DNA of 64,000 bases from Acidobacteriaceae bacterium (GTDB taxonomy: Bacteria; Acidobacteriota; Terriglobia; Terriglobales; Acidobacteriaceae). Of this stretch, positions 40,080-62,067 are shown piece by piece. The notes under the pieces are model-generated. The model saw only the letters and a program-made list of their open reading frames with translations, ran no database searches and was not told where the DNA came from. Location: the NCBI GenBank assembly GCA_003138515.1, contig PLGG01000020.1:1-64000 (forward strand), read 5' to 3'. Position 1 is the first letter of the stretch. Each line of letters opens with the position of its first letter. The position numbers and the translations under genes are program-made.

Positions 40080-40534
40080 AACCCCCGGCTGCGGCGGCGA
40101 GTTATCTAATTCACTTTCCGCGTTACATTAACAATCTCGCTGGTACAAAAGATCGGGCAGGCCAGCTGGTCACCCATGTGGCCGATGTGTTGGAATGAGG
40201 CTGCCAAAGCAGGTTTGACGGAAGCCAAACTACTCATTCACACGGACTCTGTAGTAGCTACGCGGCGAGAGCGCCTCCGGAAGTATCCGACTATCTTCTT
40301 TGCGGACTTTCGGCAGAACGCTGCGGGCAACCGCGACTTTCCGGGAACCCTCAATTCGAAACAAAGCAAGTCTAAGAATAGGCGCAGCCTGACGCGCAAA
40401 GGCTTTCCGCGGGATCGACAAAGAAATAGATAAAGTACTCTGTGCGGCCATCCAGAGAACGAATTTTCTGGCTTGCTGCGCTGCCAGCATTCGTACCTAT
40501 CAAAGAAGGACACGCGCGAACTGCGCAGATCCGT

Positions 40535-41422
40535 CTAGACTTCCGGGGGCACGCGGTCTGCGAAGTCGCGCTGGACATGTTCCAACGCGCGGCCGATCAT
40601 GAGCGTAAGAGTTTTCTTGTGTGCCTGCGCCAGCAGCCGGTCCCAGTCGAGATCTGGTGTGCTGCGAAGGACGGCAAGAGCATCGGGAATCCACCGGATG
40701 GGAGACGAATCAGTTCCATGAACACAGATGTGGAGGAGTTGATCGGCTGGGTTGAGGATTCGGACCTTTTGACCGCCAAGAACCGACTCGCCCGAATCAG
40801 CCCAGAAGTCTTCGTCCACGTCCGGGCCAAGACGACAGGTAAGAAGATTCCAGTGCAGGTCCAGATCTCTTCCGCGGGAGTCGAAGAGGTGAGCCGCGTG
40901 CCGATACTGCAGCGCCTGCTCGATCAATTGAGGGTTCTCTGGGTCTGAGAATTCGTTTGTCCATCCAAAGCGGGCGAGAATCTGGCACGCTTCGCGCGCA
41001 TGCCGATGGGGAACCAGCAGGTCCGCATCGTTCATCGGTCGCAGGCTGTAATCGTGGTAGTAAGCAATGATCAAGGCTGTACCTTTGATCAACATGACAT
41101 CTATCCCCGCCTGCTGAAGGGCGCGAATTGCTTCACTGGCCGTGCGGAAAAGGAGGTTGTTTCGCGACCAGGCGTGCTTTTTCAGGCCTTTAAGCCTGGG
41201 CAGCAAAGGGGTGTCAATTCCCTCAATGCGCAGTCGTTCGTAAAGCTGTGGCATCAGGCGCAGCGAGTCAAAGCCCATGCTTTCAATGTTGGCCCGTGGG
41301 AGCCATGCAATGGCTTCGTCACGCGCGTCCGGACCAGGATGCAACGCGGCCCTCAGGATCTGTCGCTGCTCCTCGAGAGACAACGTTCGCGGTTCGAGGT
41401 ATTGTCCAATCTCAATCAACAT
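40535..41422 (-). CDS. NTP_transf_5-type nucleotidyltransferase family protein
   Basis: The 295-residue protein has the nucleotidyltransferase core in IKGTALIIAYYHDYSLRPMN followed by DADLLV: the conserved Gly, then two metal-binding Asp. Further typical parts are DLHWNLL and a C-terminal ILNPADQLLHICVHG. The family is found near RRE/PqqD proteins and HPr-like kinases; in pseudomycoidin-type lasso-peptide clusters a related protein decorates a phosphorylated peptide. The ATG overlaps the stop of the ABC exporter gene (ATGTTGA), so it is translationally coupled and forms the last gene of the operon. Substrate and product are unknown. Confidence 0.8.
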   Translation of the reverse strand: MLIEIGQYLEPRTLSLEEQRQILRAALHPGPDARDEAIAWLPRANIESMGFDSLRLMPQLYERLRIEGIDTPLLPRLKGLKKHAWSRNNLLFRTASEAIRALQQAGIDVMLIKGTALIIAYYHDYSLRPMNDADLLVPHRHAREACQILARFGWTNEFSDPENPQLIEQALQYRHAAHLFDSRGRDLDLHWNLLTCRLGPDVDEDFWADSGESVLGGQKVRILNPADQLLHICVHGTDSSPIRWIPDALAVLRSTPDLDWDRLLAQAHKKTLTLMIGRALEHVQRDFADRVPPEV

Positions 41423-43158
41423 ATGACATCGGCCCCAAAATATTCGCTGGACTGCGATCTCTGTGCCGTACTTCGAGCGGACTGAAGGGCGATCAGTTTT
41501 CCGTCATCGAGCAAATAGCGTTGCGTAGAAACCTGAGCGAAGTTGAGATTCTGTGTGATGACAAGAATAGCTGGATGTTCCGGCAACGAATCCAGGCGTT
41601 CGAGTAGCTTTTGCACCGATTCGCCGTCAAGGTGATTGGTGGGCTCATCCAAGATCAGCAACCGCGGCCGGCGCGCCAAAGCACATGCGATCGCTATTTT
41701 CTGCCGCTGCCCGCCTGAAATGACTCCGCCATCGTCGTCAATGGGAGTGTTGTAACCGAGCTTCAGCGACCCGACGAATTCGTCCACCAGAGCAGCCCGG
41801 CAGGCCCGCAGCGCGTTCTCTTCGGATTCCTGGATGGAAAGCCCGTAAGTCACGTTCTCCCAGATCGTTCCCGCAAACAAGATCGAGTCCTGTGACGTAA
41901 AGGCGATGTGACGGCGCAGCCAGGCCATATCGAGGCGATCATAGGGAACGCCGTCGGCAAGTATCCGGCCGCTCTGCGGCCGGTAGAGACCAAGGATGAG
42001 GCGCGCCACCGTAGTCTTCCCTGCGCCGTTGGGACCCACGATGGCAGTCACCGATCCGGGCTCGAGCCGCAGCGAGACGTCCTCTAGTACGGCGCAGCGC
42101 CCGTAGCTGAAATTCACAGAATCCAACTCAATCAAGCCGCTGAACGCGCTCTTCCTGGTCCCGGTGTAAAGCGCCGACGCATCTTCGCCGGCAAAAGAGC
42201 TCAACGCGGCAAGGGCCTGACGCCCCTCGATCAGCTGCGGGACCGAGTTGAAGAATTGTTGCAAGCTGGCGTTCAGGAACAGGGTAGCCACATAAAACGA
42301 CATCAGGCTGCCTAGTGACAATTGCCCCCCCGCCACCTGCAGGCCGCCCACCACAAGAATCATTATGCCAGCCAGCATTACGGCGCTTGTATGCGCCTGT
42401 CCGTAGGCCGTCTGTAGCCAAGCCATGCGCCCGCTGTCGATGCGGAGGCTCTCAATATTCTCGTGCTGTCGCCCCGTCTCCATTTCTTCTGCGGACTGGT
42501 AACGAGTCAGATCCATGCGCCGCAGCATGAACTGCACGTCGCTGCTGAAGCGGGTGAAGGAAGCCCGATTGCGCGCGACGAGTAGTTTGACGGCGGATGC
42601 GAGATAGCGGTTGGCAAGAAAAAGAACTGGGATTACGAGCGCGAGCAGACCCAGAAGTCTTGCATTCAGCATGGCCATCAACGCGATCAGGCCGACGCAC
42701 AGAACAAGAGAAGGAAGCACGAAAGAGAAAAGCGCGTTGAGCATCACGTCCAGCAGTTGCGTGTCCTGCACCATCAGCGTGTGCAACTCGCTCCGGTTGG
42801 CCGTGTCGTGATATGTGCGCGGCAAGGCATGACAGTGGGTCACCAGATCGCGACGGATTGCCGCAATGGCCACTTTGGTCGTCCTGAGCGCTGCAAAGCG
42901 CGTGATCAGTGTGAGGCAGGCTCCGCCGGCCGTCAGCAGCAGGATGCACAGCCCCAGCAGCAGCAAGCCGTGGACGTCGCGATGCGGAATCGCGGAATCG
43001 AAGGCGCGTCGAACCAGCCAAGCGATCGGCACCAGGCTCACACTCTGCAAAAGGGCCAGAAGCACACAGCCGGCAAGCTCAAGTCGGAGACGGCGGAGAT
43101 ACGGCCAAAGATATTTCATGGCGGCGCGGTCAACCGGTCTCGTGAGTGTTCGATTCAA
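41416..43158 (-). CDS. ABC exporter (fused membrane and ATPase domains) with Gln at the switch position
   Basis: The 580-residue half-transporter has six predicted transmembrane helices (about residues 25-310) and one nucleotide-binding domain. The domain has Walker A (GPNGAGKTT), a Q-loop region (FTSQDSILFAG), signature (ISGGQRQKIAIA) and Walker B (LLILDEPTNHLD). The usual switch His is Gln (LVITQNLNF, residue 536). No peptidase C39 domain is present at the N-terminus, so it does not process a leader itself. The start is TTG 43158, overlapping the GT2 stop; ATG at residue 14 is an alternative. Position between a GT2 enzyme and the nucleotidyltransferase suggests export of the module's product. 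Confidence 0.88.
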   Translation of the reverse strand: MNRTLTRPVDRAAMKYLWPYLRRLRLELAGCVLLALLQSVSLVPIAWLVRRAFDSAIPHRDVHGLLLLGLCILLLTAGGACLTLITRFAALRTTKVAIAAIRRDLVTHCHALPRTYHDTANRSELHTLMVQDTQLLDVMLNALFSFVLPSLVLCVGLIALMAMLNARLLGLLALVIPVLFLANRYLASAVKLLVARNRASFTRFSSDVQFMLRRMDLTRYQSAEEMETGRQHENIESLRIDSGRMAWLQTAYGQAHTSAVMLAGIMILVVGGLQVAGGQLSLGSLMSFYVATLFLNASLQQFFNSVPQLIEGRQALAALSSFAGEDASALYTGTRKSAFSGLIELDSVNFSYGRCAVLEDVSLRLEPGSVTAIVGPNGAGKTTVARLILGLYRPQSGRILADGVPYDRLDMAWLRRHIAFTSQDSILFAGTIWENVTYGLSIQESEENALRACRAALVDEFVGSLKLGYNTPIDDDGGVISGGQRQKIAIACALARRPRLLILDEPTNHLDGESVQKLLERLDSLPEHPAILVITQNLNFAQVSTQRYLLDDGKLIALQSARSTAQRSQSSEYFGADVIC

Positions 43159-43865
43159 ATTGGAACTCCAGGCAAAGCTTCCAATCTCCTACCGCGCTTA
43201 CGGTCCATGTGTTCTTTCAGGATCCGAATAGTGGCCCGGGCGACCGCACGCTGGTCCTGAGAGATATTCGCGTCGTGAATCCGCCGGCACACCATGATCG
43301 AAGAAGTAAAGCCAATGGAAATCCCGGCCTCCCGCACTCGGAAAAACCATTCCACGTCATCGGCGATCCGGTAGCGCTCATTGAAAGCGCCCACTTTGTC
43401 GAAGACCCACCGGTGGATCAGACTTGCCTGTAGTCCCAAGGAGACAGCATCCTCTTCGAGCATGTATTCGGCTACCCAATCGGGCTTTTCGGTTCCGATT
43501 TCGATAAAGTTCTGGAATCTCCCAACCACGCAGCCCAGTTCCCCGTGCTTGGCAAGATATTGGCTCTGTACCATCAGATAATGCGGTGGCCAGTAGTCGT
43601 CGGCATCGAGAAATGCGATCATCTCCCCGGTGCTGTTCCTCAATCCCGTATTTCGAGCCACCGGGGGGCCCTGGTTCGACTGGTGAACGTTGCGCACCTC
43701 GGGATAAGAGCGGGCGATGGCCGCGGTAAAATCCGTTGAGCCATCGTCCGTCACGACAATCTCTATTGGCCGATAGGTCTGCGCCAGGACACTGTCGATC
43801 GCTTGCGAGAGATACTTCTCGGCGTTGTAGGCCGGAATTATCGCGCTTATCAGCTTCGGCTGCAT
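43155..43865 (-). CDS. family 2 glycosyltransferase
   Basis: The 236-residue GT-A fold enzyme starts with ISAIIPAYNAEKYLSQAIDS and has the nucleotide-binding VTDDGSTD and the metal-binding DxD as FLDADDYW, followed by GFTSSI and CRRIHDANIS near the end. It lacks membrane helices, so it is cytoplasmic or peripheral. It starts 16 bases inside the kinase gene and ends overlapping the ABC exporter start, so it belongs to the coupled RRE-kinase module rather than to the main set of glycosyltransferases further upstream. Acceptor and donor sugars cannot be inferred; UDP-glucose is available from the GalU-like enzyme two genes upstream. Confidence 0.88.
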   Translation of the reverse strand: MQPKLISAIIPAYNAEKYLSQAIDSVLAQTYRPIEIVVTDDGSTDFTAAIARSYPEVRNVHQSNQGPPVARNTGLRNSTGEMIAFLDADDYWPPHYLMVQSQYLAKHGELGCVVGRFQNFIEIGTEKPDWVAEYMLEEDAVSLGLQASLIHRWVFDKVGAFNERYRIADDVEWFFRVREAGISIGFTSSIMVCRRIHDANISQDQRAVARATIRILKEHMDRKRGRRLEALPGVPI

Positions 43866-44953
43866 TGTTCCCGCTTTCCAGGTCTCGCGGGCAAGCGCGC
43901 GAGCAACTCCCGCAGAAGTGGGGGCGTGGAGCGCACGTCAGCGCCAAGTTCAATGACGTAGGTGGGCAGCCGCCGAACCAGCCCGTTGAAACACGAAAGG
44001 GCCCGGGCTCGGGCAGAAGGGGGGTGAACAGCACAGCTTCCAACCAGCATCCTGAATGCCTCACCCTGCGTGGCCGCGATCAATTTGGTCCGCGGAACGT
44101 CCATGATGCGGGCCAGGAGAATCGCGCGCAATGTCATAGAGCGGTTAAGGTGCGCGACAGAGAAAGCGCCAAAGAAAAACACGGCCTTTTCATTCTCTGG
44201 CCGGTCGCGCGTATCGGCGGCAGGCGCGAGCATAGGGAATCGATCGATCTCCTCGGTCGCCAGCTTGCCGGTTCCGTAAACGCTATGTACCAGCGGTGCC
44301 GCATGCAGAGATACAAGGCAGTAATCGTCCCCAGCGTAATGCATCCCGTCTTCGAGACAAGTGAGCGCCGTTGTGGACTTGCCTGCGCCGCCATGACCGA
44401 GGATCAGAACCCCATTCTCCTCATTGCCCACGGCAGCTCCGTGTACAAAGAATCGCCCTTGCTTACCCAGCCAATAAATCAGCAGTTGCTGCAGGGGATG
44501 GGCACGATCGACATAGGCGATAGAAGCCGCGTTCGGTACCAGCCAGCAGGCGGTCCGTTTTGCCCACTCCACCGCGGTTATGAACTGGCGCTGCCTTTGC
44601 AGGATTACGGAATACTCCCGCCCCTCTTCCAGCCAGAAATCGCTCTCCCCGGGAGTGGTTGCGAATTCGGGCAGGGAAAACGCGCGCTCGAAGAGCGAGG
44701 CTTCTTCGCGAACAAAAATGGTGAGCCGTGGTTCTGCATTGTCGGAATCCAGAAGGTGATCAAACGCTGGCGCGATCTTCCTTCGGAGAGTCTCGCTGCC
44801 AAATTCCAGACGAACTGCCAGCCCGGCAATCGCGATGGATGCCACGGAACTGCATGGCTGATCGTGCAGGCGATCCCGAACACCGCGGAATATCTCAGTC
44901 AAGGAAGAGGTGTGCGGCGGAGACACGAATGCTACTTCAGATCCTGGGCCCAA
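43850..44953 (-). CDS. HPr kinase-related (serine) kinase
   Basis: The 367-residue protein has the HPrK/P fold centre. VHGAAVGNEENGVLILGH runs into the Walker A GHGGAGKST (about residue 190), followed by EDGMHYAGDDYCLV with the acidic pair and, further on, KAVFFFG and HLNRSM. The N-terminal 150 residues are unlike the HPr kinase of Gram-positives but resemble the kinases found beside PqqD-like proteins. Such kinases phosphorylate the C-terminal Ser in paeninodin-type lasso peptides; here the target is unknown. No HPr-like protein is encoded nearby. The TTG start at 44953 has GGAGAG upstream and overlaps the end of the PqqD-like gene by 17 bases; GTG 44926 is an alternative. Confidence 0.8.
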   Translation of the reverse strand: MGPGSEVAFVSPPHTSSLTEIFRGVRDRLHDQPCSSVASIAIAGLAVRLEFGSETLRRKIAPAFDHLLDSDNAEPRLTIFVREEASLFERAFSLPEFATTPGESDFWLEEGREYSVILQRQRQFITAVEWAKRTACWLVPNAASIAYVDRAHPLQQLLIYWLGKQGRFFVHGAAVGNEENGVLILGHGGAGKSTTALTCLEDGMHYAGDDYCLVSLHAAPLVHSVYGTGKLATEEIDRFPMLAPAADTRDRPENEKAVFFFGAFSVAHLNRSMTLRAILLARIMDVPRTKLIAATQGEAFRMLVGSCAVHPPSARARALSCFNGLVRRLPTYVIELGADVRSTPPLLRELLARLPARPGKREQCSRS

Positions 44954-45437
44954 GCTGGCTCTCCGAATTTGTTTTTTTTGGCCATCCGTAGTCGGGGTCG
45001 ACCTGATGTATCGGGTCGATCAAGAGGAGGTCACGTACGTCGTCGAAACGCTCGAGCACCGGCAATTCATAGCCTGCGTCTGCCGGATAACGGCGCAAGG
45101 CCGTGAACCTGCTAACGACACTCTCTGGCTCGCGTTCCACGATGATGCCCTCTGCCGCGAGTCGAGCGACAAAGCTGGCGATCGAGGACCGAAATCGTTC
45201 GCAATTCTCGGAGACGCCGAAAAGGGCGGGTGCAAGATTGTCCGCCGTGACTCCGTCATTCAGCAGTTCCAGAATCTCCGTGCCTGACAAGGAGAGGCTG
45301 AAGTAGTAGCCGGTTTCGACATTTACCAGTACGGTCTCCTCTTCGAACCGCTCTGCTACATGCCGGGCGTGGTCGATCCGATATTTTCCCAGTGACTGAT
45401 CCAAAGAACCCTCCCAAAATACAGCCCGCGCTCCCAT
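44937..45437 (-). CDS. PqqD-like RRE protein with conserved-looking acidic C-terminal tail
   Basis: Residues about 15-100 form a PqqD-type winged-helix (RIDHARHVAERFEEETVLVN, TGYYFSLSLSGTEILELL, ARLAAEGIIVE), the fold that binds leader peptides in RiPP pathways. It continues for 65 residues, with FDDVRDLLLIDPIHQVDPDY followed by GWP. I recall similar DPIHxVDxxGWP tails on other PqqD-family proteins from HPr-rel-A type loci. The tail is not needed for an RRE fold. GGGAGG lies six bases before an in-frame TTG at 45404, which may be the true start instead of ATG 45437. It is coupled to GalU upstream (gap of eight bases) and the kinase downstream. Confidence 0.82.
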   Translation of the reverse strand: MGARAVFWEGSLDQSLGKYRIDHARHVAERFEEETVLVNVETGYYFSLSLSGTEILELLNDGVTADNLAPALFGVSENCERFRSSIASFVARLAAEGIIVEREPESVVSRFTALRRYPADAGYELPVLERFDDVRDLLLIDPIHQVDPDYGWPKKTNSESQLGPRI

Positions 45438-45445
45438 TCGGCCGT

Positions 45446-46369
45446 CTAGTTATTGCAAGGCGCCGAACTCGGCGACATATACCGAGATAGAACCGGCGCT
45501 AGTTCAACATCGGCGAGCAAGCACTCAATCGTCGCTTCGACAAATCCATGCCAGTTACCGGTATCGATGTGCCTGCCCTCAAAGAGATAGCCGTAGACGG
45601 GGTTTGAATTGCAATACGAGTTCAATGCATCCGTCAATTGAAGCTCACCGGATGGATCGGGCTGGGTATTGTCAATTGCGTCGAACACTTCGGGGGCAAG
45701 CACGTATCTTCCAAAAACACCGTATAACGAAGGTGCGCATTGCGGCGATGGTTTCTCGACCATCGATCTTACGCGAACTGTTCGCATGTCTTTCTCTGGT
45801 CTCTCCGAATCCACAACGAGAATCCCATAACGGCGAGTCTCAAACATCTGGACCAAGCGTGTTGCAATCACCGGTCTCCGATGTCGGCGATAACATTCGG
45901 CCAATTGGGCGATGCACGGATTCTGAGAGATGATTAAGGCGTCGGGCAAGATGACTCCGAATGCCTCGTCCTTTATCTCTGGTCGTGCGCAACGGATCGC
46001 GTCGGCAAGACCGAGCGGGGCACTCTGGTTGACGAAAGAAAATCGTAGCCCGCTGAACATCGCGCGCAGCTTCTCGGCCTCTCCCTGGACGCCATGTACA
46101 TCCAAAAAGTGCTCCAACTGTATATCGCGCTCGAAGAATCTTTGTAAACTCGAGTCGGATCGGGCACATACGAAGATAATGTGATCGATCCCGCTTGTCG
46201 CCGCCTCTTCCACTGCATACAGAATCAAGGGCTTTCGCCCAATAGGAAGAAGTTCTTTGCGAACTGCTTTGGTCGCCGGAAGAAGGCGGGTTCCCCGTCC
46301 GGCCACAGGTATTACAACTGACCTTAACGGCGAAACAGTCTGCGGTCCAGAGGACGCCGGCATTATCAT
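45446..46369 (-). CDS. galU: UTP-glucose-1-phosphate uridylyltransferase (GalU-like)
   Basis: About 307 residues starting MIMPASSG, with the nucleotidyltransferase signature VVIPVAGRGTRLLPATKAVR, KELLPIGRKPLILYAVEEA, FGVILPDALI and MVEKPSPQCAPSLYGVFGRY. These are typical GalU features, so UDP-glucose from UTP and glucose 1-phosphate is expected. Because it sits among D-manno-heptose genes, activation of heptose 1-phosphate is a possible alternative, although the sequence is closer to GalU than to HddC. The ATG 46369 overlaps the stop of the isomerase gene (ATGA), which supports it over the ATG five codons upstream. Confidence 0.85.
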   Translation of the reverse strand: MIMPASSGPQTVSPLRSVVIPVAGRGTRLLPATKAVRKELLPIGRKPLILYAVEEAATSGIDHIIFVCARSDSSLQRFFERDIQLEHFLDVHGVQGEAEKLRAMFSGLRFSFVNQSAPLGLADAIRCARPEIKDEAFGVILPDALIISQNPCIAQLAECYRRHRRPVIATRLVQMFETRRYGILVVDSERPEKDMRTVRVRSMVEKPSPQCAPSLYGVFGRYVLAPEVFDAIDNTQPDPSGELQLTDALNSYCNSNPVYGYLFEGRHIDTGNWHGFVEATIECLLADVELAPVLSRYMSPSSAPCNN

Positions 46370-46962
46370 TTCACCGATTCCCATTTCATTTCGGATGCCT
46401 TAAGCCTGGGATGGCACACCAATAAGTGCCACACCAGAGCCTGAAACGACTCAGTGAGCGGGGTGACTCTGGCAGGGTTGGGTACTTTTACAATCACGCA
46501 GGCATCCGCGACTTTCGCGGTATATCCCCCGTCTCGACCAACTACACCACAGATTTTCGCTCCTACCTGCTTGGCATACTGCAATGCGCGCACAAGATTT
46601 GCACTGATATTGCGCTCCGCGTCTCCGCCGCCCACTGAGAATACGAAGATCAGGTCGACGGCTCGCAGTCTGCTGCCATGCAGCCAGTTGACGTATACGG
46701 AATCCCAGCCATCGTCATTGACTCGAGCCGTCAGTTCCGAGGTATTGTCGCTCGGCGCGTACGCCTCGATATCGGCGATCTTTCGAAAATCGCACACCGC
46801 GTGAGACGCATTCCCCGCTCCTCCTCCCACGCCAAGAAAAAACACCCGCCCATCATGAGCGCGTGTTTCCTCCAACAGTTCCGCCATCCGCTCGATTCCG
46901 TTCTCGTCGAGGTCATGCAGGACTGCAATGGCTTCCTCGATGTACGCGTGCGAGTAACTCAT
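46366..46962 (-). CDS. gmhA: SIS-domain phosphoheptose isomerase-like protein (GmhA type)
   Basis: The 198-residue SIS-fold protein contains VFFLGVGGGAGNASHAVCDF, SELTARVNDDGWDSVY and IFVFSVGGGDAERNISANLV, arranged as in sedoheptulose-7-phosphate isomerases. GmhA makes D-glycero-D-manno-heptose 7-phosphate from sedoheptulose 7-phosphate. The usual SGNS-type loop is changed to VGGGDAERN, and GGSA to GGAGNAS, as in variant SIS proteins of capsular heptose loci. The start at ATG 46962 is supported by AAAGGAG about nine bases upstream; it lies 50 bases inside the end of the phosphatase gene. The adjacent kinase and phosphatase make the pathway assignment likely. Confidence 0.8.
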   Translation of the reverse strand: MSYSHAYIEEAIAVLHDLDENGIERMAELLEETRAHDGRVFFLGVGGGAGNASHAVCDFRKIADIEAYAPSDNTSELTARVNDDGWDSVYVNWLHGSRLRAVDLIFVFSVGGGDAERNISANLVRALQYAKQVGAKICGVVGRDGGYTAKVADACVIVKVPNPARVTPLTESFQALVWHLLVCHPRLKASEMKWESVK

Positions 46963-47587
46963 CTTTGTACGCTCCTTTGATTCGCAACATTGCGTCGGAA
47001 TTAATAGCCCCCATAATTGGAACCGCATCTGCGAGAGTAGTTGCAATGAAGTCAGGCGTTACGCCACGTTCCGCCAGTTGATCGCACACGTAGCATTTTC
47101 TCTGACTCAGGAGAATCGCGCGTGACCCTGCGCGCTGTCCCGCAATCACATCCGTAAGGCCGTCTCCGATCATGACAGATTCGCGGAGATCGATGTTCAT
47201 TTCTTCGGCCGCCTTCAGCAAGAGCCCGGGTTTGGGTTTGCGGCATGCGCAGTTCAGTAGATACTCAGGGTGAGTGGCCTGGGGATGGTGCAGGCAGTAA
47301 TAGACCGCATTGATCGCTCCGCTGCAGTCTGCAGTCATCTTTGCAGTAACGGCGTGCAGCAGTTCCGCGCTAAACTTCCCTTTGGCGATTCCTGGCTGAT
47401 TCGACACGACGACAACGAGAAACCCCATATGGCGAAATGCCGCCATCGCCTCCGGAACTCCGGCGACGATCTGAAATTCATCAGGGTTGCTCGGCGAGTC
47501 GACCGTCCCAAACTCAGGGTTGTAGACATAGGAGTTGATTACTCCATCGCGGTCGAGGAAAACTGCCTTCTTGAGTGTGGTCGTCAC
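46913..47587 (-). CDS. gmhB: D-glycero-D-manno-heptose 1,7-bisphosphate phosphatase-like HAD protein
   Basis: The 224-residue HAD-IIIA enzyme has motif I (AVFLDRDGVIN), motif II (VVVVSNQPGIAKG), the zinc-binding CLHHPQATHPEYLLNCACRK and the motif III/IV region MIGDGLTDVIAGQRAGS. These are the hallmarks of GmhB, which removes the 7-phosphate from heptose 1,7-bisphosphate. The C-terminal 25 residues (AMLRIKGAYKDELLARVHRG) extend beyond the usual fold and overlap the isomerase gene by 50 bases. It follows the heptose kinase gene by 23 bases. Confidence 0.9.
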   Translation of the reverse strand: MTTTLKKAVFLDRDGVINSYVYNPEFGTVDSPSNPDEFQIVAGVPEAMAAFRHMGFLVVVVSNQPGIAKGKFSAELLHAVTAKMTADCSGAINAVYYCLHHPQATHPEYLLNCACRKPKPGLLLKAAEEMNIDLRESVMIGDGLTDVIAGQRAGSRAILLSQRKCYVCDQLAERGVTPDFIATTLADAVPIMGAINSDAMLRIKGAYKDELLARVHRGSHCSPA

Positions 47588-47610
47588 GGTTCGCTGAAGA
47601 GACTTCCTAA

Positions 47611-48669
47611 TTACACTTCTACTGTCGCCGCGCTCGCGGCGTTCTCCAGCCGTCTCATGTGGGCCAGACGTCCGTCGCGAGATACGATGTCGAAGATGAC
47701 CTTGCTGCCTTCGAATTCAAAGCGGAAGTTAAGCTCGCGCAAACCTGCGCCTCTCATTGCTTCTCGCAGAACGCCCTTTGGGCCCTCACAATAAAGCGTA
47801 AGAAATCCACCCCCGCCGGCGCCAGTAATCTTACCGCCGATTGCGCCGTGACGTTTGGCGAGTTCATACCATCCATCGATGCGGGGATTGCTGATCCCCT
47901 TGGCCAGGCGCTTCTTTGTCTGCCAATGGAGGTCCATTAACTCGCCGAATCGCGTCAGGTTGCCCCGAGAAATGCAGTCGCGGATCTCAAATCCCATGGC
48001 TTTGATTTCCAGAAGGCTACTTACAACCTCTGCGTCGCTTCTCTTGGTTGCACTATCCTGGCTCGACAGTATCGCATTGGCATCCCGTACTTCCCCGGTA
48101 TAGAAGAGAAGCATGTTACTTTCAAGTTCTTCGATGATCTCAAAGGGCAGCGCCAGGCGAGTCACTTTGACTGTGCCGTCGTTGGCAATATCCAGTTGGG
48201 TCAGACCGCCAAAGGCGGCCATATATTGATCCTGCTTGCCGATCGACTTCTTCAGAATCTCGAGCTCAATTTGGCAGGCTTCCTCCGCCAATTCCTGAGT
48301 TCTCACCGGGTCCTGCGACAACGCGTGCAGGGCTTTGAGCAGGCCAACGAGATAGCAACTCGACGATCCAAGGCCAGTGCCGGCGGGAATATCTGCGATC
48401 GAGACGATTTCGAGACCAGTTTCGAAACCGAAGAATCTCATCGCCTCCCTTGCCAACGTGTGCTGCACTTCATTCGCATGACACACCAGTTCGGCGTGGC
48501 TATATCGGACTCGAATCATATCGTCCACAATCGGAGCATTCACATTAAGGTACATGTACTTATCGATGGCAACAGCGAGCACAAATCCGCCATACTCCCG
48601 GTAAAAGGAGGGCAAATCCGTTCCGCCTCCACCCAGGGCGACCCGGTAAGGTGTACGCGTCATTATCAT
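47611..48669 (-). CDS. hddA: GHMP-family D-glycero-D-manno-heptose 7-phosphate kinase (HddA-like)
   Basis: The 352-residue kinase has the GHMP motifs: RTPYRVALGGGGTDLPSFY near the start, the ATP loop IPAGTGLGSSSCYLVGLL (about residue 98), KQDQYMAAFGG and a C-terminal GKITGAGGGGFLTLY. HddA phosphorylates heptose 7-phosphate at C1, the alpha branch that leads to GDP-heptose in capsule pathways, in contrast to bifunctional HldE of the LPS route. Its ATG overlaps the stop of the oxidoreductase gene (ATGA). A fucose/galactokinase-type substrate is possible, but the neighbouring isomerase and phosphatase favour heptose. Confidence 0.85.
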   Translation of the reverse strand: MIMTRTPYRVALGGGGTDLPSFYREYGGFVLAVAIDKYMYLNVNAPIVDDMIRVRYSHAELVCHANEVQHTLAREAMRFFGFETGLEIVSIADIPAGTGLGSSSCYLVGLLKALHALSQDPVRTQELAEEACQIELEILKKSIGKQDQYMAAFGGLTQLDIANDGTVKVTRLALPFEIIEELESNMLLFYTGEVRDANAILSSQDSATKRSDAEVVSSLLEIKAMGFEIRDCISRGNLTRFGELMDLHWQTKKRLAKGISNPRIDGWYELAKRHGAIGGKITGAGGGGFLTLYCEGPKGVLREAMRGAGLRELNFRFEFEGSKVIFDIVSRDGRLAHMRRLENAASAATVEV

Positions 48670-49694
48670 GGTTGCGCATCCTCATCTTCTGCGATCGCGA
48701 CCCACCTGCCAACCGCAGAGCTTTCGTATGCTGTTTCGATCATGCGTTGGGCGCGAAGACCATCGCGCCCGCTGCCCAGTGGCGCTCGTTGCTCGGCGAT
48801 GGCTGCCAGGAATTCTTTCCATTCCTCCCGCCAGTCGTCGCCGGATTCAAATTCGATGTGCTGCTCGCAAGGCCGAGAGTGATCGCTATTTCGTTTCGCC
48901 CATCTTATAACCGGTGGGCCATAATGCCCGTCCCTGCCTTGCAGCTTCAGATATCCGTCTTGGCCGTAGAGCTCTAACTGGAAGGAATTAATCCATTGAG
49001 TCCAACTTACATGGACTTGAGCAATCTGACCGGCTTTCGTCTCAAACAGGCAAAAGCAATTATCCTCGACATCGCGAAGATTCCAAAAAAAGGTGCTTCT
49101 TTGTCCTGCCACGCGGACTGGCTCTCCCAAAAGGTAACGGATCAGGTCCATCACATGAATGCCCTGTTCCAGTAACGCACCGCCGCCAGAAATTTCGGGA
49201 TCAGTATGCCACTCTTTCTCGAAGCCGGGTCTACCCCCATGGCCGAAATGGCAGCGCAGGAAAGAAAGCTCACCCAGCTCGCCGCCGGCAATAAGTTCCT
49301 TCGCTTTGCGAACGTGCGGGAGGTGTCGATAGTTGAATCCGGTCTTAAGCACTTTGCTCGAGGCGCGCGCCGCATCCACAATTCGTTCAGCTTCGGCCAC
49401 GTTTCGCGCCAGCGGTTTCTCGCAGAGAACATGTTTGCCTGCCGCCAGGGCTGCGGACGCGATCTCAGCATGAAGCATGGTGGGCGTCGCCACAATCACA
49501 GCATCGACGCCCGGAGCGGAGATGCACTCGCGCCAGTCGCTGAAGCTCTTAGCTCGCACGGGTGAGGCAACCCTTTCCGCAGCTGCGATGTTTGCATCGG
49601 CAACCGCCACGAGCTCGGCTGGCTTTACTTCGCTGATGACTCGTGCGCGAATCTGACCGATCCGTCCCGCTCCGATCAATGCGATCCCGATCAT
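48666..49694 (-). CDS. Gfo/Idh/MocA family oxidoreductase
   Basis: About 342 residues: Rossmann motif IGIALIGAGRIGQIRARVI, the family signature GKHVLCEKPLARNVAEAE (Lys of EKP near the active site) and GFNYRHLPHVRKAKELI. The C-terminal beta domain has GGGALLEQGIHVMDLIRYLLG. Such enzymes oxidise or reduce sugar ring positions with NAD(P), often on nucleotide sugars. ATG 49694 is preceded by AGGAGG and overlaps the SDR stop (ATGA). It probably modifies the same sugar as the SDR and epimerase, but the position acted on is unknown. Confidence 0.88.
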   Translation of the reverse strand: MIGIALIGAGRIGQIRARVISEVKPAELVAVADANIAAAERVASPVRAKSFSDWRECISAPGVDAVIVATPTMLHAEIASAALAAGKHVLCEKPLARNVAEAERIVDAARASSKVLKTGFNYRHLPHVRKAKELIAGGELGELSFLRCHFGHGGRPGFEKEWHTDPEISGGGALLEQGIHVMDLIRYLLGEPVRVAGQRSTFFWNLRDVEDNCFCLFETKAGQIAQVHVSWTQWINSFQLELYGQDGYLKLQGRDGHYGPPVIRWAKRNSDHSRPCEQHIEFESGDDWREEWKEFLAAIAEQRAPLGSGRDGLRAQRMIETAYESSAVGRWVAIAEDEDAQP

Positions 49695-50521
49695 TTTCCT
49701 CCTATCGATACGCGTCGAAGTGTCCAGGTGTCGGAGTTGAGGAGCGATGTGAAGTGCTGGTCGAGGTGTTCCCAATCGTCCCAGACGACACTGATTAACC
49801 GTCCCGTTATAGGAACGGGAGTACCAGCCAGCATGAGCGCAAGGCGGGCTGCACGTTGCGCGGAAACTCCTCCTGTGGCGTCCATTTCATTCAACTCGCG
49901 CAGCGCGTCTTCACCGGCAAGCGAACTCGCCGCGCGCAATTCTTCCCACATTGCGCTCTTCACCGGACCAGGTGCGATCACGTTCACATAGATGTTTTTG
50001 TCCTTCAATTCCATCGCAATGCATTCCGTGAATCGCACGATAGCTGCTTTGCAAGCGCTGTAGGATGAGAAGAATGGACGCCCGTAGGCGCCGCCTCCGC
50101 CGGAGAAATGAACGATCCGTCCAGTGCGACCCTGCAACATGGAAGGCAAAATCGCGTGCACAACATTGAAGGCACCGGTTACATTGATTTCGACTGCGCG
50201 CGCCCAGTGCGCAGGATCATTCTGCTCCACAGGTCCTATGGGCCCGTAAGCCCCGGTGGCGTTCACCAGGATTTCTACAGAACCGAAGCCCCTTTCCACC
50301 GCGCCAATCGCCCGCGCTATTGTCTCAGGGCACGTAACGTCCATTTCAACCTGCATGCATCGAGCGCCGGTTGCACCGATCTGCTTGACAAGACCGGATA
50401 CCGATGACAATCGAGATGCCAGTGCGACCGCGGCGCCTTCCCGCGCGAACTCATGGGCAATTGCGCTTCCGATTGCCCCTGAAGCCCCCACAATCAACGC
50501 TACCTTTCCGCGAACCGTCAC
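49691..50521 (-). CDS. short-chain dehydrogenase/reductase
   Basis: About 276 residues starting from GTG 50521, which overlaps the epimerase stop (GTGA). The cofactor motif is KVALIVGASGAIGSAIAHEF; the active site has NATGAYGPIGP, a Ser in HFSGGGGAYG and the catalytic pair YSACKAAI (Tyr-x3-Lys). APGPVKSAMWEEL is also typical of classical SDRs. The longer frame from 50617 lies over the epimerase gene and shows no similarity. Substrate is probably a sugar or sugar nucleotide made in this locus. Confidence 0.88.
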   Translation of the reverse strand: MTVRGKVALIVGASGAIGSAIAHEFAREGAAVALASRLSSVSGLVKQIGATGARCMQVEMDVTCPETIARAIGAVERGFGSVEILVNATGAYGPIGPVEQNDPAHWARAVEINVTGAFNVVHAILPSMLQGRTGRIVHFSGGGGAYGRPFFSSYSACKAAIVRFTECIAMELKDKNIYVNVIAPGPVKSAMWEELRAASSLAGEDALRELNEMDATGGVSAQRAARLALMLAGTPVPITGRLISVVWDDWEHLDQHFTSLLNSDTWTLRRVSIGGK

Positions 50522-51471
50522 GCTCGCACTTCCTCGTGGATCGAAACGTGCGCGCGGGACGCGAAAAACTCGACCGTTCGCTTCGCTCCAACTGCGAGCG
50601 GTATTTCGGGCTTCCATTGGAGCAGACGTGCCGCCTTTGAGATGTCGAGTGTGATCTTATCGATCTCGCCCGGGCGAGCCGATGCATATCTCGGTTCGAT
50701 TTCTTGCCCCAGTAAATCGCGAATGACTGCAAAGACCTCGTAATCCGTAGTGGGCTCGCCGCTGCCGATATTGAACTTCTCTCCCCCGCCCAGCTTGAGC
50801 GCTGCTATGTTCGCGCGGACGGCATCCTCAATGTAGACGTAATCGCGATACTTCGTGCCATCCCCGTAAATGACCGGCTGAATCCCCGCGAGCATCTGTT
50901 CGCAGAAAATCGCGAAGACTCCAGCCTCCCCCTTTGAACTTTGGCGGGGGCCGTACACATTCCCGTAGCGGAGGACGACATACGGAAGACCGTACAGAAA
51001 TGAAAACGTGAAGAGATAGTGTTCGATCGTATGCTTGCTGATTCCGTACGGAGTGATCGGATTGATCGGGCAATCTTCTCCCACCGGTTCCGATGCCGGT
51101 TCGCCATAGCCGGCGCCGGCGCTGGCTATATAGATGAATCGCTGAAGCTTGTGCTGCACCGCCAATTCCAATAAATTGATGGAGCCAAGAATGTTCACCG
51201 ATGCATCGAATACCGGTTCACGTACCCCGCGCCTGACGTCCATTTGAGCAGCGTGGTGGTTAATGACCTCGGGTTGCTCCCGGTGAAAGACCGTTTCGAG
51301 AAAAGCTCGATCCAGGATGTCGCCGCGATAGAACCTCGCCTTGGGGTTCAGGTTGCTCTCCGAACCACGGGACAAATCATCCACAATAGCAACATCGTGC
51401 CCCTGCTCGATATAGCCGTCGGCTACATGCGAGGCGATAAATCCAGCTCCGCCAGTCACCAGTATTTTCAT
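50518..51471 (-). CDS. NAD-dependent nucleotide-sugar epimerase (GalE-like)
   Basis: The 317-residue extended SDR has MKILVTGGAGFIASHVADGY for NAD binding, HHAAQMDVRRGVREP, the active-site YGISKHTIEHY (Tyr-x3-Lys) and RYGNVYGPRQ. The strongest general resemblance is to UDP-glucose 4-epimerases of polysaccharide loci, so it could supply UDP-galactose from the GalU product, but other 4-epimerases or dehydratases share these motifs. It follows the priming transferase gene by 26 bases. Confidence 0.87.
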   Translation of the reverse strand: MKILVTGGAGFIASHVADGYIEQGHDVAIVDDLSRGSESNLNPKARFYRGDILDRAFLETVFHREQPEVINHHAAQMDVRRGVREPVFDASVNILGSINLLELAVQHKLQRFIYIASAGAGYGEPASEPVGEDCPINPITPYGISKHTIEHYLFTFSFLYGLPYVVLRYGNVYGPRQSSKGEAGVFAIFCEQMLAGIQPVIYGDGTKYRDYVYIEDAVRANIAALKLGGGEKFNIGSGEPTTDYEVFAVIRDLLGQEIEPRYASARPGEIDKITLDISKAARLLQWKPEIPLAVGAKRTVEFFASRAHVSIHEEVRA

Positions 51472-51497
51472 GATTTAGGCTCCTAAAGAAACAACAG

Positions 51498-52982
51498 TTA
51501 AATTGCGCCTTCCTGCGAGAGGAACCCGCAGATTGTCTTTCCGATGATGACCAGATCCAACCAGATAGACCAGTGGTCGATGTAGAACATATCCATCGCG
51601 ATACGATCTTCGTAGCTCGTCGCCTGACGCCCGTTGACCTGCCAGTATCCGGTAAGGCCCGGTTTAACCATCAGGCGCTTTTCCATTAGTTTTCCGTAGC
51701 GCTCTGTTTCGGCGAAGGCAATGACCCTCGGACCTACGAATGTCAATTGGCCGGTGAGCACGCTGAAAAACTGCGGAAACTCATCGATACTGAACTTTCT
51801 CAATGTGTGCCCAACTTTCAGAATGCGCGGATCCTCTGACAACTTGTGATTTTCTGCGAACCGTCTTTGCATCTCCGCGTTACCGCGGATAACTGCGTCG
51901 GCATCTCGAACCATCGTACGGAACTTGAGGTAGTAATGAATGCGACCGTCAGATCCAACAAACTCCCGCCTGTGAAACAACGGCCCTCGGTCCTCGAGGT
52001 AGATAAGTCCACAGATAACCGGGGCAATCAGTATTGTGAGAATGCTGCCGATCAGCCCAATCGCCAAGTCGAGCAGGAATTTGCAGGCTCGTTGCAGTTG
52101 TGTGGACCACGCTGGAGTCGTGCGAAAGCGGAGGCTTCCGCTGTAGTAGTCGATTTCGCAATCGCCGCCATACTCGCGGAACAGTTCATTGGCCAACTCA
52201 ACTTCAATGCCAAGCTGCCTGCAGCCGCTGAGAATATCGAGAATCAGTCCGTTCCGATTTGCCGTTTCGTTTAGATCGATCACGACGACATTGGCCTGCG
52301 CGCTTTCCAAGATTGCCCGCCAGTCGTCCACCTGGCCCAACACGGGCACATCAGCGTCCAGAATTGCATCGGAATCGCTGTCCCGTGCCGGGATCAAACC
52401 AAGCAACTCGTATCCGCGAAAGCGCTGAATTGCCAAGTTTCGCTGAAAGGCGCGCAAACCGGCGACTGCAGCCACCATGGTGACGCGCTTTCGCGAGTAT
52501 CCGGCCTTCCAGAGTCTGACGTAGGCGGCGCGGACAATGAAGCGGCCCATTAGGACGATTGGCAATGCGCTCACAAACCAACCGATGGCCCAGTGCCTGA
52601 AAGGCGCATCGTTCAAGAACAGGAACGTCTCCAAATAAATCAGCGCGAACACAGCGGACAGCGCCTTGACCACGCTTGCCAGTTCTTGTTCGGGCCGCTT
52701 AAACAAAACTGAGCGACGGCTGTCCAGCAGTTGCAGTGTACCCACGGCAAAAAGAATCAGAAGCAGACTGCAACCGGCAATCGATTCCCGTCGAATCAGA
52801 GGAAGCTGATCTCTGATCGCCGCGATGGCTAAGCCTTGAGCCGCTATTAATGATAGGACATCCGAGCAGACGCGGGACCAGCACTCGCACAGCTTCAAGC
52901 CGCCGAGAGAAAGGCTGCGCGGACCCTTCCGCACTTCTCCAATCTCCCTGGATGAAGCGAGAACGTCTGAGATCGAGTTCAT
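51498..52982 (-). CDS. polyprenyl-phosphate sugar-1-phosphate transferase (priming enzyme, WcaJ/WbaP-like)
   Basis: The 494-residue inner-membrane protein has four N-terminal helices (about residues 40-170), a CoA-binding-like central domain (RVTMVAAVAGLRAFQRNL) and a further helix. The conserved C-terminal catalytic domain includes KFRTMVRDAD, LRKFSIDEFPQFFSVLTGQL, FVGPRV, KPGLTGYWQVNGR and YEDRIAMDMFYIDHWS. It transfers a sugar-1-phosphate, usually glucose or galactose, to undecaprenyl phosphate and so starts the repeat unit. The product would be extended by the glycosyltransferases encoded upstream. Confidence 0.93.
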   Translation of the reverse strand: MNSISDVLASSREIGEVRKGPRSLSLGGLKLCECWSRVCSDVLSLIAAQGLAIAAIRDQLPLIRRESIAGCSLLLILFAVGTLQLLDSRRSVLFKRPEQELASVVKALSAVFALIYLETFLFLNDAPFRHWAIGWFVSALPIVLMGRFIVRAAYVRLWKAGYSRKRVTMVAAVAGLRAFQRNLAIQRFRGYELLGLIPARDSDSDAILDADVPVLGQVDDWRAILESAQANVVVIDLNETANRNGLILDILSGCRQLGIEVELANELFREYGGDCEIDYYSGSLRFRTTPAWSTQLQRACKFLLDLAIGLIGSILTILIAPVICGLIYLEDRGPLFHRREFVGSDGRIHYYLKFRTMVRDADAVIRGNAEMQRRFAENHKLSEDPRILKVGHTLRKFSIDEFPQFFSVLTGQLTFVGPRVIAFAETERYGKLMEKRLMVKPGLTGYWQVNGRQATSYEDRIAMDMFYIDHWSIWLDLVIIGKTICGFLSQEGAI

Positions 52983-53035
52983 AGTTGGTCTCTCATTGGA
53001 TTCGCCGGTCGCTGTCCGTTGTTCCCAGCAGGGTC

Positions 53036-53824
53036 TTATGAAACGTAAAATCCGTTCTCCCTGACCTTAATGGACGAATGCAAGGCAAGCTCTGCTGGCA
53101 CGGGGCTGGTCGTGAGCGTATATCCCGCCTTTACCGCATCGTGGTGAAACATCTGAACCGTCTCCAGAGAATATTCCTCCAGGGACTTACCGACAAGCGA
53201 CAGTTTCTTGAGCAAGTCGTTGGTCACAGTAATCACATGGCAGCCAATGTCATTGGCCTGAAAGATATTCAGTAATTCCCGCGGACTGGCCCATATAAGT
53301 TCGATGTGCGGGCGACCGGAAAGAACGCACACGGCCTCGGCCATCATCGGAAGAGGATCGCGACCAGTATCGGCCACGCGACCCGCAAACACCGAGATAT
53401 AGCCCGCAGGCGCATCCGCCAGACACTCGGCTGCGACCTTCACCTGCTCAAGCGTCATCAAAGCTGTGACATTCATCCGCACTCCGCTTCGCGCCAGACG
53501 ACGAATGAGGGGCACCGAGTTCATTCCCTTGGTATTCGTCACGGGTATTTTCACGATCACCTGCGGGCCCCAGCTGGAAATCTCCAGTGCCTGCGCTTCC
53601 ATTTCGCTGAATTCGTCTGCAAATACCTCAAATGAAATCGGCTTATCGGGAATCGCGTGCAACACCTCGCGCGCGAACGCCGCATAGTCGTTCACCCCTG
53701 CTTTCCGCATCAAGGTGGGGTTCGTGGTGAATCCTTTGATCAGCGGGTTCAACGAACAATCGACGATACCATTGAGGTCTGCGCCATCGGCGAAGATCTT
53801 TACCTTTAGATCGGCTAGCTGCAT
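53036..53824 (-). CDS. tal: transaldolase family protein
   Basis: About 262 residues of the short (FSA/MipB-like) transaldolase type. KIFADGADLNGIVD gives the first strand Asp, IKGFTTNPTLMRKAG follows, and the Schiff-base Lys is in VIVKIPVTNTKG. VNVTAL-type sequence (MNVTALMTLEQVK) and ISVFAGRVADTGRDP complete the barrel. It can interconvert sedoheptulose 7-phosphate and fructose 6-phosphate. Its presence in an operon with a phosphoheptose isomerase, kinase and phosphatase suggests a role in supplying the C7 precursor. ATG 53824 has GAGGAGA eight bases upstream; the ATG twelve codons earlier is less likely. Confidence 0.88.
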   Translation of the reverse strand: MQLADLKVKIFADGADLNGIVDCSLNPLIKGFTTNPTLMRKAGVNDYAAFAREVLHAIPDKPISFEVFADEFSEMEAQALEISSWGPQVIVKIPVTNTKGMNSVPLIRRLARSGVRMNVTALMTLEQVKVAAECLADAPAGYISVFAGRVADTGRDPLPMMAEAVCVLSGRPHIELIWASPRELLNIFQANDIGCHVITVTNDLLKKLSLVGKSLEEYSLETVQMFHHDAVKAGYTLTTSPVPAELALHSSIKVRENGFYVS

Positions 53825-53903
53825 TGTTGTCTCCTCATCAGGTTGCAACTCATTCTGCACGGAAGCGTGCTAAATACCAAAAGGTTCACTTACTTCTGTA
53901 GCC

Positions 53904-54035
53904 TCACGCCCATAACGCAACAAAGGCGGTGATTCCGGTGTTCACTTCGCTCGCACGCTGGTTGTTGATATTCTGATTCGACGCGAATCCCGCTACCACT
54001 CCAGACATCTGTGCGGTGACAATGAGAGGTTCCAT
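53904..54035 (-). CDS. possible 43-residue peptide
   Basis: In the 310-base gap between the transaldolase and the GT4 gene the minus strand has an open frame of 43 codons starting MEPLIVTAQMSGVVAG and ending GITAFVALWA. It has no cysteine, a weakly hydrophobic end and no clear ribosome site. It is in the same direction as the operon. It could be chance, a regulatory leader, or a small secreted or modified peptide. I do not recognise it. Confidence 0.3.
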   Translation of the reverse strand: MEPLIVTAQMSGVVAGFASNQNINNQRASEVNTGITAFVALWA

Positions 54036-54134
54036 GTATAAGTCTGCCAATCGTTTAACCGAACATGCTATTGCGGCTCAATCCTGGCGGATGTTAGATG
54101 TTATTCGAAGTCGCCGCGAAAATGTTGCGGACGA

Positions 54135-55301: not shown

Positions 55302-55359
55302 GGGCCTTCCTCACCTGCGTTTTCTTCACGCCCGCCACCCTGCATGAGCAGTGCGAGTT

Positions 55360-56124: not shown

Positions 56125-56156
56125 TCGTTGTTCCGCCACTATTGTCGGCTGCACCC

Positions 56157-56906: not shown

Positions 56907-57247
56907 GGCCTCTCCTCCAAGCGAGGTGCTGGTTTTGGCTTTCTACAGACAGAAGTTCAGAAGCGTATCTGGGCGTTGTAACGACCAAGTGAAGCATTAC
57001 CTCCACGAGGTGGAAGCAGATTGCTGATCATTTCGTGCAGGCGTCCTGGGCAATGAGGTGAGGCCTGAAACACGTTGGGCATTCGGAATTATTAGGCCGG
57101 ATTCTCCCGTTCGATTGGTGAAGGGGGAAGGCATGGTCATCGATGCGAGAAGAAATCGTCGCAATTCCATCGATATTGAAAGTCGTTTTACGCCGGAGCT
57201 CAAAGTCCCACAGAAAGGCCAGTGCGCCGGCCGAAGAACGAGTCAAT
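56907..57247. other. intergenic gap inside the exopolysaccharide operon
   Basis: This is the longest gap in the leftward operon. A frame of 86 codons on the minus strand (57028-57288) overlaps the end of the GT2 gene and has no recognisable similarity. No promoter, terminator or repeat can be supported. It may contain a remnant of a lost gene. Confidence 0.4.
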
Positions 57248-61977: not shown

Positions 61978-62067
61978 AAATAATTACTTCGGTTCCTCAT
62001 CGGCAAACCCGATAGAATTCAGTGGATCTTAAGAACTTCGGAATCTACGCAGATCATGATGGGACTT

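Follow-up and report, generated by a model that had tools for sequence, protein, structure and literature searches.

The window analysed here is a stretch of 64,000 nucleotides from an Acidobacteriaceae bacterium and covers bases 1-64000 of contig C51 (100.7 kb) in a draft genome of 4.23 Mb and 90 contigs. On its minus strand, at 40535-45437, five co-oriented genes encode, in this order, a PqqD-like RiPP recognition element (RRE; RiPP, ribosomally synthesised and post-translationally modified peptide), a kinase of the HPr kinase (HprK) type, a family 2 glycosyltransferase (GT2), an ATP-binding cassette (ABC) exporter and an NTP_transf_5 nucleotidyltransferase. RREs are known for reading leader peptides that are separate from them; in this cassette the reader bears a leader-like part of its own, as the first half of a highly conserved C-terminal tail that accompanies one clade of the kinase. 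We tentatively read the set as a RiPP-derived module for phospho-glycan tailoring, in which an RRE with a built-in leader and a docking peptide serves a dedicated kinase, and give this reading a little less than an even chance.

The C-terminal tail of the RRE protein

The RRE protein of the window ends in the tail YELPVLERFDDVRDLLLIDPIHQVDPDYGWP, in which a leader-like YxxPxL part is followed by a constant DPIHEVD..GWP part. In 18 aligned tails, L15, D19, P20, H22, V24 and W30 were invariant, D11 and G29 were each found in 17, and the first aromatic residue and the proline of column 4 in 15 each. The mean pairwise identity of 18 proteins (including L093 and excluding L100) was 56% in the tail, 28% in the RRE, 12% in the linker and 10% after the tail. 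No serine or threonine is conserved in the tail, and two of the 18 tails (L050 and L107) have no Ser, Thr or Tyr at all beyond the leader part. Conservation across phyla, while the RRE drifted to such a low identity, is the mark of a constant job and not of a diversifying peptide product. Judged by its sequence, the tail, which is almost unchanged across very different bacteria, probably does one such job.

The first half of the tail resembles the motif [Y/W]xxPx[L/V/I/F/A], which is bound by the RREs of lasso peptides and of linear polyphosphorylated peptides (LPPs) (PMC13381572). The structure of the window protein was predicted with AlphaFold2 from an alignment of 21 RRE rows. PF05402 is matched over its cut-off and the model has the fold of a PqqD/B1-type RRE. 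Its nearest solved structures are lasso B1 proteins with their leader: TbiB1 with the TbiA leader (5v1u, Z 10.6, root-mean-square deviation (rmsd) 2.3, 83 aligned; 5v1v, Z 10.6, rmsd 3.1, 87 aligned) and 6jx3 (Z 10.4, rmsd 2.2, 84 aligned). Following a weaker linker, residues 121-140 reached pLDDT (predicted local distance difference test) values of 92 and 87; in the model this stretch includes a strand (128-131) and a helix (134-140). For residues 141-160, the DPIHQVD..GWP end, the values were 59 and 58. The model thus predicts order in the leader-like half and a free constant half. At the other end of the protein, the first 13 residues of the catalogued frame had a low pLDDT, and a TTG at 45404 with GGGAGGG directly upstream (seen by eye) may be the true start instead of the catalogued ATG at 45437.

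Among 396 genomes of the window's phylum, 145 had matches to a profile of the whole RRE at E <= 1e-4, mostly in tail-less proteins. With a profile of the tail alone, which omitted L093 as a near copy of L092, 16 matches were obtained in the same 396 genomes at E <= 0.01. Eleven were full and strong and all lay within RRE frames; the others were variant tails in G390 and G484, a relic in G377 and marginal matches in G306 and G353. In 199 genomes of the phylum of a Kuenenia-labelled metagenome-assembled genome (MAG) there were five matches, four of them strong. The matches in G306, G353 and G584 had E values of 0.002-0.009 and spanned 13-15 columns only. All rows of the tail profile came from genomes already known by the whole RRE or the kinase, so re-finding these was by construction. 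The tail was also present in G131 and G026 (from the window's family, in another sample of 200 genomes), in a Bryobacter MAG and on plasmid pCRI9333.04 of the cyanobacterium Crinalium epipsammum PCC 9333, where the annotated gene row reads PqqD, nucleotidyltransferase, HPr kinase, FkbM methyltransferase and glycosyltransferase.

No intact unfused tail was found with the tail profile in the 595 genomes. A tail acting as a stand-alone peptide was considered and rejected, the sole strong match outside an RRE frame being a 22-residue fragment, KPSLEKYTDQQEMLLLDPIHEV, in G377 (L122; G377:C61:9461-9526). It is bounded by stops on both sides, lacks an RRE frame upstream and is probably the relic of a lost cassette; G377 has no kinase of the cassette clade.

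Pairing of the tail with the kinase

The kinase of the window belongs to the HPr kinase/PEPCK superfamily, as judged from its catalytic residues and from the predicted fold of a relative. H171, K192, D209 and D210 were invariant among 16 kinases; this His-Lys-Asp-Asp set is reported as essential in paeninodin-type kinases (PMC9266682). The fold was checked on L051, a natural fusion of RRE, tail and kinase. The kinase part of its model matched PEPCK with Z 17.4 (rmsd 4.8, 309 aligned) and the HPrK core with Z 14.2 (rmsd 2.2, 130 aligned). The best named match of the window kinase was in the Bryobacter MAG (Acidobacteriota), with 31% identity, and the two kinases nearest to it in a sample of 200 genomes also lie in tailed loci.

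Nineteen canonical tailed loci were compared: the window, L032, L033, L050, L051, L083-L085, L087-L093, L100 and L106-L108. The 18 besides the window come from the window's phylum, the Bryobacter MAG, four genomes of the phylum of the Kuenenia-labelled MAG and one cyanobacterial plasmid. Four loci with short, variant or other tails were left out; the kinase is adjacent to the RRE in L095 but not in L094 and L086, and L096 has a more distant one. L052 (Lachnospiraceae), with a weak kinase match and a tail-less RRE match, was set aside. A kinase of the same clade was found near the RRE in all 19 loci, either adjacent to it, one gene off (L092, L093 and L100) or fused to it (L051).

When a profile of 16 kinases was run against the 396 genomes, with five candidates scored per genome, 13 genomes matched at E <= 1e-60, and the score then fell from 220.7 to 89.4 bits. 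These are the same 13 genomes that have an intact tail, 11 of them canonical and two, G390 and G484, with the variant DPPxPGL; the kinases of these two score lowest among the 13. The profile contains nine of the 13, whose recovery was therefore by construction; G214, G310, G390 and G484 are outside it. The informative result is that no further genome has the kinase. The coincidence of kinase and tail is more than chance. Since the tail tracks the kinase and L107 contains the pair alone, the kinase is the protein most likely to read the constant segment.

More distant HprK-type kinases were seen in 14 fetched loci (L034-L047). Eight of them (L034, L036, L038-L042 and L046) have an SLBB exporter gene in the same 20 kb, which in several cases divergently adjoins the kinase, a second link between such kinases and exopolysaccharide.

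Search for a separate precursor

No credible separate precursor was found near the cassette. Small frames of 20-130 residues were searched with a stringent leader motif. None was found in the 18 other tailed loci, and the window has one, antisense within the RRE gene. In the control locus L109, where the RRE is tail-less, the same motif was present in three frames in tandem. Such a frame was found in the flanks of about 1.5 kb in 4 of 18 tail-less RRE loci, the genome of L109 included (the set was reduced from 19 by removing L066, the gene of L096; L105 is the control locus L109). A looser motif, [YW]xxPx[LIVFMA], occurred in 0-9 small frames per locus and in 8 of the control and was treated as noise, as were the two small frames that it marked downstream of the window cassette. 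A comparison with PHROGs gave no match. L109 itself (5841-6849) looks like a RiPP cluster of the phylum of the Kuenenia-labelled MAG, with a tail-less PqqD gene followed by three small frames that share the leader KKPYxxPxLTVLGTLEDLT and have Cys-bearing ends.

In the window's own genome, a lasso-like leader profile found nothing at E <= 0.1, a search that a precursor with an unlike leader would escape. The profile matched nine places in G635, the source of two of its five rows. The lasso peptidase B2 (PF13471) had no match in the own genome at E <= 0.01, and asparagine-synthase matches (E <= 1e-5) lie on C37 and C48 only, with none on C51. An ordinary lasso cluster was rejected on these grounds. 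The original prediction had named a cyclase just outside the window as the sign of such a cluster, and none was found there. It had also stated that the set lacks a cyclase, a leader peptidase and a precursor. For cyclase and peptidase this agrees with the missing matches on C51 and the missing B2; for the precursor it must be amended, as no separate one was found, yet the RRE has a leader-like segment fused to it. A Pfam scan of the 22 genes of operon and cassette, which left small frames and the remainder of the genome aside, showed no SpI-like peptidase.

Among the other genomes with a cassette, B2 clearly exceeded its cut-off in G249, G256 and G026, on contigs other than that of the tailed cassette, and was marginal in G657. 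The B2 contig of G026 also holds an asparagine synthase and a weak leader match. Both systems can therefore coexist in one genome as separate loci.

Gene content of the cassette and its surroundings

Homologues of the GT2 and of NTP_transf_5 were each found in 16 of the 19 loci, so that RRE, kinase, GT2 and NTP_transf_5 recur together in 16 loci of several families and phyla. The GT2 lies on the strand of the RRE except in L088, and NTP_transf_5 except in L088 and L090; the NTP_transf_5 match is weak in L108 and in L051 (phmmer 4e-9, with no Pfam match). Both genes are absent from L085, where the contig ends about 3.2 kb downstream, from L106, where it ends at the kinase, and from L107, which is not at a contig end and has the RRE-kinase pair without them in its stretch. 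An in-line ABC gene was found in three loci, MsbA-like in the window and in L091 and Wzm/Wzt-like in L050. Five more (L033, L051, L088, L090 and L100) have one on the opposite strand of the stretch, the permease of L088 being identified by eye. L091 has the gene order nearest to that of the window: RRE, kinase, GT2, GT2, ABC and NTP_transf_5. In L050 (13251-15074; the Bryobacter MAG), the NTP_transf_5 domain is fused to an ABC-2 permease and followed by an ABC ATPase. The constant unit is therefore the tailed RRE with its kinase, usually accompanied by GT2 and NTP_transf_5, and the exporter is facultative. Of the five genes that the original prediction had taken as one module, four are conserved together and the ABC exporter varies or is absent. 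The five are consecutive in the window and of the families that it had named; the successive overlaps, with the starts used here, are 17, 16, 4 and 7 nt, hence 4-17 and not 1-17.

Radical S-adenosylmethionine (SAM) domains were seen in two tailed loci: in L084 (8986-11487) they share one frame with a GT2 inside the cassette, and in L050 a separate radical SAM gene precedes the RRE. L096 (8291-12581; G359) has a PqqD protein that ends in YVSPHMEKHGKLDQLMLSGE, together with a distant HprK, NTP_transf_5 and a family 4 glycosyltransferase (GT4). A frame of 168 residues in this locus (9231-9737) resembles an S24/S26 signal peptidase by eye and has no Pfam match. L096 is perhaps an LPP-like set whose RRE likewise has a leader-like tail.

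In the window, the NTP_transf_5 gene is interrupted in frame by a TAG at 40535-40537. The catalogued product (40535-41422) has 295 residues and keeps the family domain before the stop, whereas about 98 residues are missing; 12 relatives have 343-407 residues, some of them cut by contig ends. Homology goes on to 40238 in the same frame, and tblastn with two relatives passed through the TAG in that frame. Against a C-terminal profile of ten relatives, the frame past the stop scored 22.0 bits, the best of 500 shuffles 8.9 and frame 2 0.9 (frame 1 is unreported). The codon use past the TAG is not clearly coding, which runs counter to the homology. The TAG may be a true nonsense change or an assembly error. 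NTP_transf_5 has a single match in the genome.

The cassette was said to be joined to polysaccharide and heptose genes, and this was borne out. A co-oriented series with gaps of at most 341 nt extends to 64.6 kb. It runs on the minus strand from an SLBB exporter through Wzz, Wzx, Wzy, glycosyltransferases, a sugar transferase, a transaldolase and a heptose-type set (HddA-, GmhB-, GmhA- and GalU-like) to the five cassette genes. The GalU-like gene stops 8 nt upstream of the cassette. The neighbours at 45446..49775 may provide an NDP-heptose-type supply. The features are listed in Table 1; the window exporter scored 260.8 bits with the MsbA_rel model, under the cut-off of that model.

Table 1. 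Features of the cassette and of the genes upstream of it (window coordinates).
Feature	Position	Strand	Evidence
PqqD/RRE-like protein with C-terminal tail, 166 aa as catalogued	44937..45437	-	PF05402, 34 bits (cut-off 23.4); AlphaFold2 mean pLDDT 81.7
RRE domain, aa 18-101	45135..45386	-	Z 10.6 to 5v1u and 5v1v, 10.4 to 6jx3; 28% mean pairwise identity (18 rows)
Tail, aa 123-154: leader-like YELPVLERFDDVRDLLL and constant IDPIHQVDPDYGWP	44976..45071	-	18-row alignment, six invariant columns; E 1.2e-16; 56% mean pairwise identity
HprK/PEPCK-type kinase, dedicated clade	43850..44953	-	Hpr_kinase_C 23.6 bits, below cut-off 33.3; H171, K192, S193, D209, D210 invariant in 16 rows
GT2 glycosyltransferase	43155..43865	-	PF00535, E 4.7e-35
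MsbA-type half ABC exporter without peptidase domain	41416..43158	-	PF00664 and PF00005 (ABC_membrane and ABC_tran)
NTP_transf_5 frame, TAG at 40535-40537	40238..41422	-	PF14907, 139 bits, E 2.3e-40 (cut-off 31.2)
GalU-type nucleotidylyltransferase, GmhA-like SIS, GmhB-like HAD, HddA-like GHMP kinase, Gfo/Idh/MocA	45446..49775	-	Mostly below NCBIfam cut-offs
Short-chain dehydrogenase/reductase (SDR), epimerase, bacterial sugar transferase, transaldolase, GT4, methyltransferases, GT2, Wzy, Wzx, Wzz/GNVR, SLBB exporter (continues beyond window)	49691..64000	-	Upstream polysaccharide genes

Interpretation

If the cassette is a module for phospho-glycan tailoring, the leader-like segment (YxxPxL...DLL) would occupy the groove of the RRE, in cis or between two copies, and the groove-bound part would hold out the constant DPIHEVD..GWP segment. 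This segment would recruit the dedicated HprK-type kinase and switch it on. The kinase would then phosphorylate an acceptor, for which a glycan or glycolipid is a likelier candidate than the tail. NTP_transf_5 would decorate the phosphate, the GT2 would add a sugar, here perhaps a heptose, possibly in this order, and the ABC exporter, where present, would move the product. The kinases of LPPs (PMC13381572) and of paeninodin-type peptides (PMC9266682) act on Ser, and a tail with no conserved Ser or Thr favours a docking or activating role for it and a glycan or glycolipid as the phosphate acceptor. The tail as a Ser-phosphorylated core was rejected on the same residues. That the exporters are of different types, MsbA-like and in line in the window and in L091, an ABC-2 permease fused to NTP_transf_5 with an ATPase in L050, fits a glycan product.

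Several observations weigh against this reading. The likeness of the tail to leaders had an hhalign probability of 14% (E 0.002; 1 of 300 column shuffles was as good), a weak and partly circular result, as the leaders were chosen by a motif shaped partly on the tail. The contact between tail and RRE was judged, without coordinates, from the DSSP and pLDDT output of a model built on a 21-row alignment. In the model of the L051 fusion, made from an alignment without other RRE rows, RRE and tail stayed below pLDDT 50, which is uninformative on docking of the tail to the kinase. RRE and kinase of G484 are on different contigs, and the 8.4 kb fetched around the RRE hold no kinase. The second RRE of G246 (L086; G246:C64) has a cut-short leader-like ending, FVAPTLTRHANHLI, and no adjoining kinase. 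By eye and by matches to window genes, with the flanking genes scanned in part, no polysaccharide operon was seen around the cassette in L032, L083, L089, L091, L092 and L107. With its truncated NTP_transf_5, the module of the window may be decaying. The open-licence literature on RRE-leader or RRE-precursor fusions and on PqqD/HprK in polysaccharide, lasso or Acidobacteria contexts, in the parts available, yielded no biochemical fact on any cassette member.

The same tail can be explained in other ways. The RRE protein may be its own substrate, with DPIHEVD..GWP covalently modified by a sugar, a phospho-sugar or another group and serving as a peptide-borne carrier or cofactor-like product, for which the constant cores of PqqA and MftA offer an analogy. 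The fusion of the tail to an RRE that is far less conserved, its invariant L, D, P, H, V and W, the failure to find another precursor and the GT2 homologues in 16 of 19 loci all speak for such a carrier. The known Ser chemistry of these kinases misfits, as no Ser or Thr is conserved and two tails have no Ser, Thr or Tyr past the leader part. In addition, no peptidase was seen among the 22 operon genes scanned, and a protein of about 150 residues would need processing or export as a whole. We regard this explanation as unlikely, though with a real share of the probability. A related idea, to which we give slightly less credit still, is that an RRE with its own leader and invariant core unites recognition element, leader and acceptor, and that kinase, NTP_transf_5 and GT2s build a phospho-glycan on this protein. 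If true, surface glycans would be assembled on a protein-borne carrier that descends from a RiPP precursor and, going by record labels, has reached at least three phyla. A carrier may also be coupled to the polysaccharide, as the original prediction had considered.

It is rather improbable that the cassette makes a RiPP of the LPP or lasso type from a precursor encoded elsewhere, with the tail as a mere leader mimic that closes the RRE groove until the true precursor displaces it. The enzymes equal the LPP set and lie in a polysaccharide locus (PMC13381572), and some cassette genomes (B2 in G249, G256 and G026) have a lasso-type locus on another contig. In the window's own genome neither a lasso-like leader (E <= 0.1; an unlike leader would be missed) nor B2 was found, and the invariant GWP part would be superfluous in a leader mimic. 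We disfavour most strongly, as very improbable, that ordinary accessory genes of the polysaccharide operon were thrown together and partly decayed in the window's genome. The in-frame TAG in NTP_transf_5 and the tail relic without an RRE frame in G377 would suit this, but homologues of RRE, kinase, GT2 and NTP_transf_5 recur together in 16 of 19 loci, and in all 13 genomes concerned the kinase and an intact tail occur together.

The tailoring module that we prefer bears on the question why enzymes of the LPP and paeninodin type recur in capsule and exopolysaccharide loci. DPIHEVD..GWP is an easy handle for finding the system, and the RRE-kinase pair, with only two genes, is small enough for work in E. 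coli.

Comparison with known systems

Fusions of RREs to enzymes are described in the RRE-Finder paper (PMC7470986) and in a 2025 survey (PMC12710340); the available parts of the two papers contain no mention of an RRE that carries its own leader. The parts of the open-licence literature covered above likewise contained no paper on this cassette.

The original prediction had suggested kinship with the HPr-rel-A loci, in which a PqqD-like protein also stands beside an HprK-related kinase. This did not hold, the window kinase reaching 16 of the required 200 bits with TIGR04352 and the PqqD protein 17 of 35 bits with TIGR04353. The kinases of L087, L100 and L107 also fell below the cut-off, and TIGR04353 was not matched at E <= 0.01 by the RREs of L091, L100 and L107. 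By their NCBIfam names, ScmC and ScmD of the SynChlorMet system are a similar pair of PqqD-like and HprK-like proteins. Membership was rejected because the scores were far below the cut-offs (the ScmC/ScmD models were compared; other Scm genes were not searched for).

The pointer to phosphorylated lasso peptides was better placed: the RRE model is nearest to complexes of lasso B1 with its leader, the kinase keeps His-Lys-Asp-Asp and the LPP set is similar (PMC13381572). With the paeninodin and pseudomycoidin systems the cassette shares this kinase signature, a B1-type RRE and a relative of PsmN (PMC9266682), the NTP_transf_5 homologue that is needed for the hexose on phospho-Ser, with its direct role left open in that paper. 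It differs from them in that no cyclase or B2 adjoins it, the genome has no B2 and there is no conserved Ser acceptor.

Closest in composition are the LPP loci (Popov et al. 2026; PMC13381572). They encode an RRE, an HprK, an NTP transferase and an MsbA-like transporter, have no cyclase, often lie in capsule loci of Bacilli and are said to be restricted to Bacillota. Their separate precursor has a YxxPxVLxHQ leader, a variable C terminus and a Ser acceptor, and they include an SpI-like protein (an archaeal-type signal peptidase). The window resembles them in its discrete RRE, HprK-like kinase, NTP transferase (here truncated) and MsbA-like transporter, in the missing cyclase, in its polysaccharide locus and in the YxxP-type leader. 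It differs in that no SpI-like gene is present among the 22 scanned, no separate precursor was seen, with the exact LPP motif not searched for across the genome, and the leader-like part is fused to the RRE; moreover, the constant segment, if the tail is the core, has no conserved Ser, and a GT2 belongs to the set. We therefore do not file the cassette as an LPP locus, though it may share the LPP chemistry.

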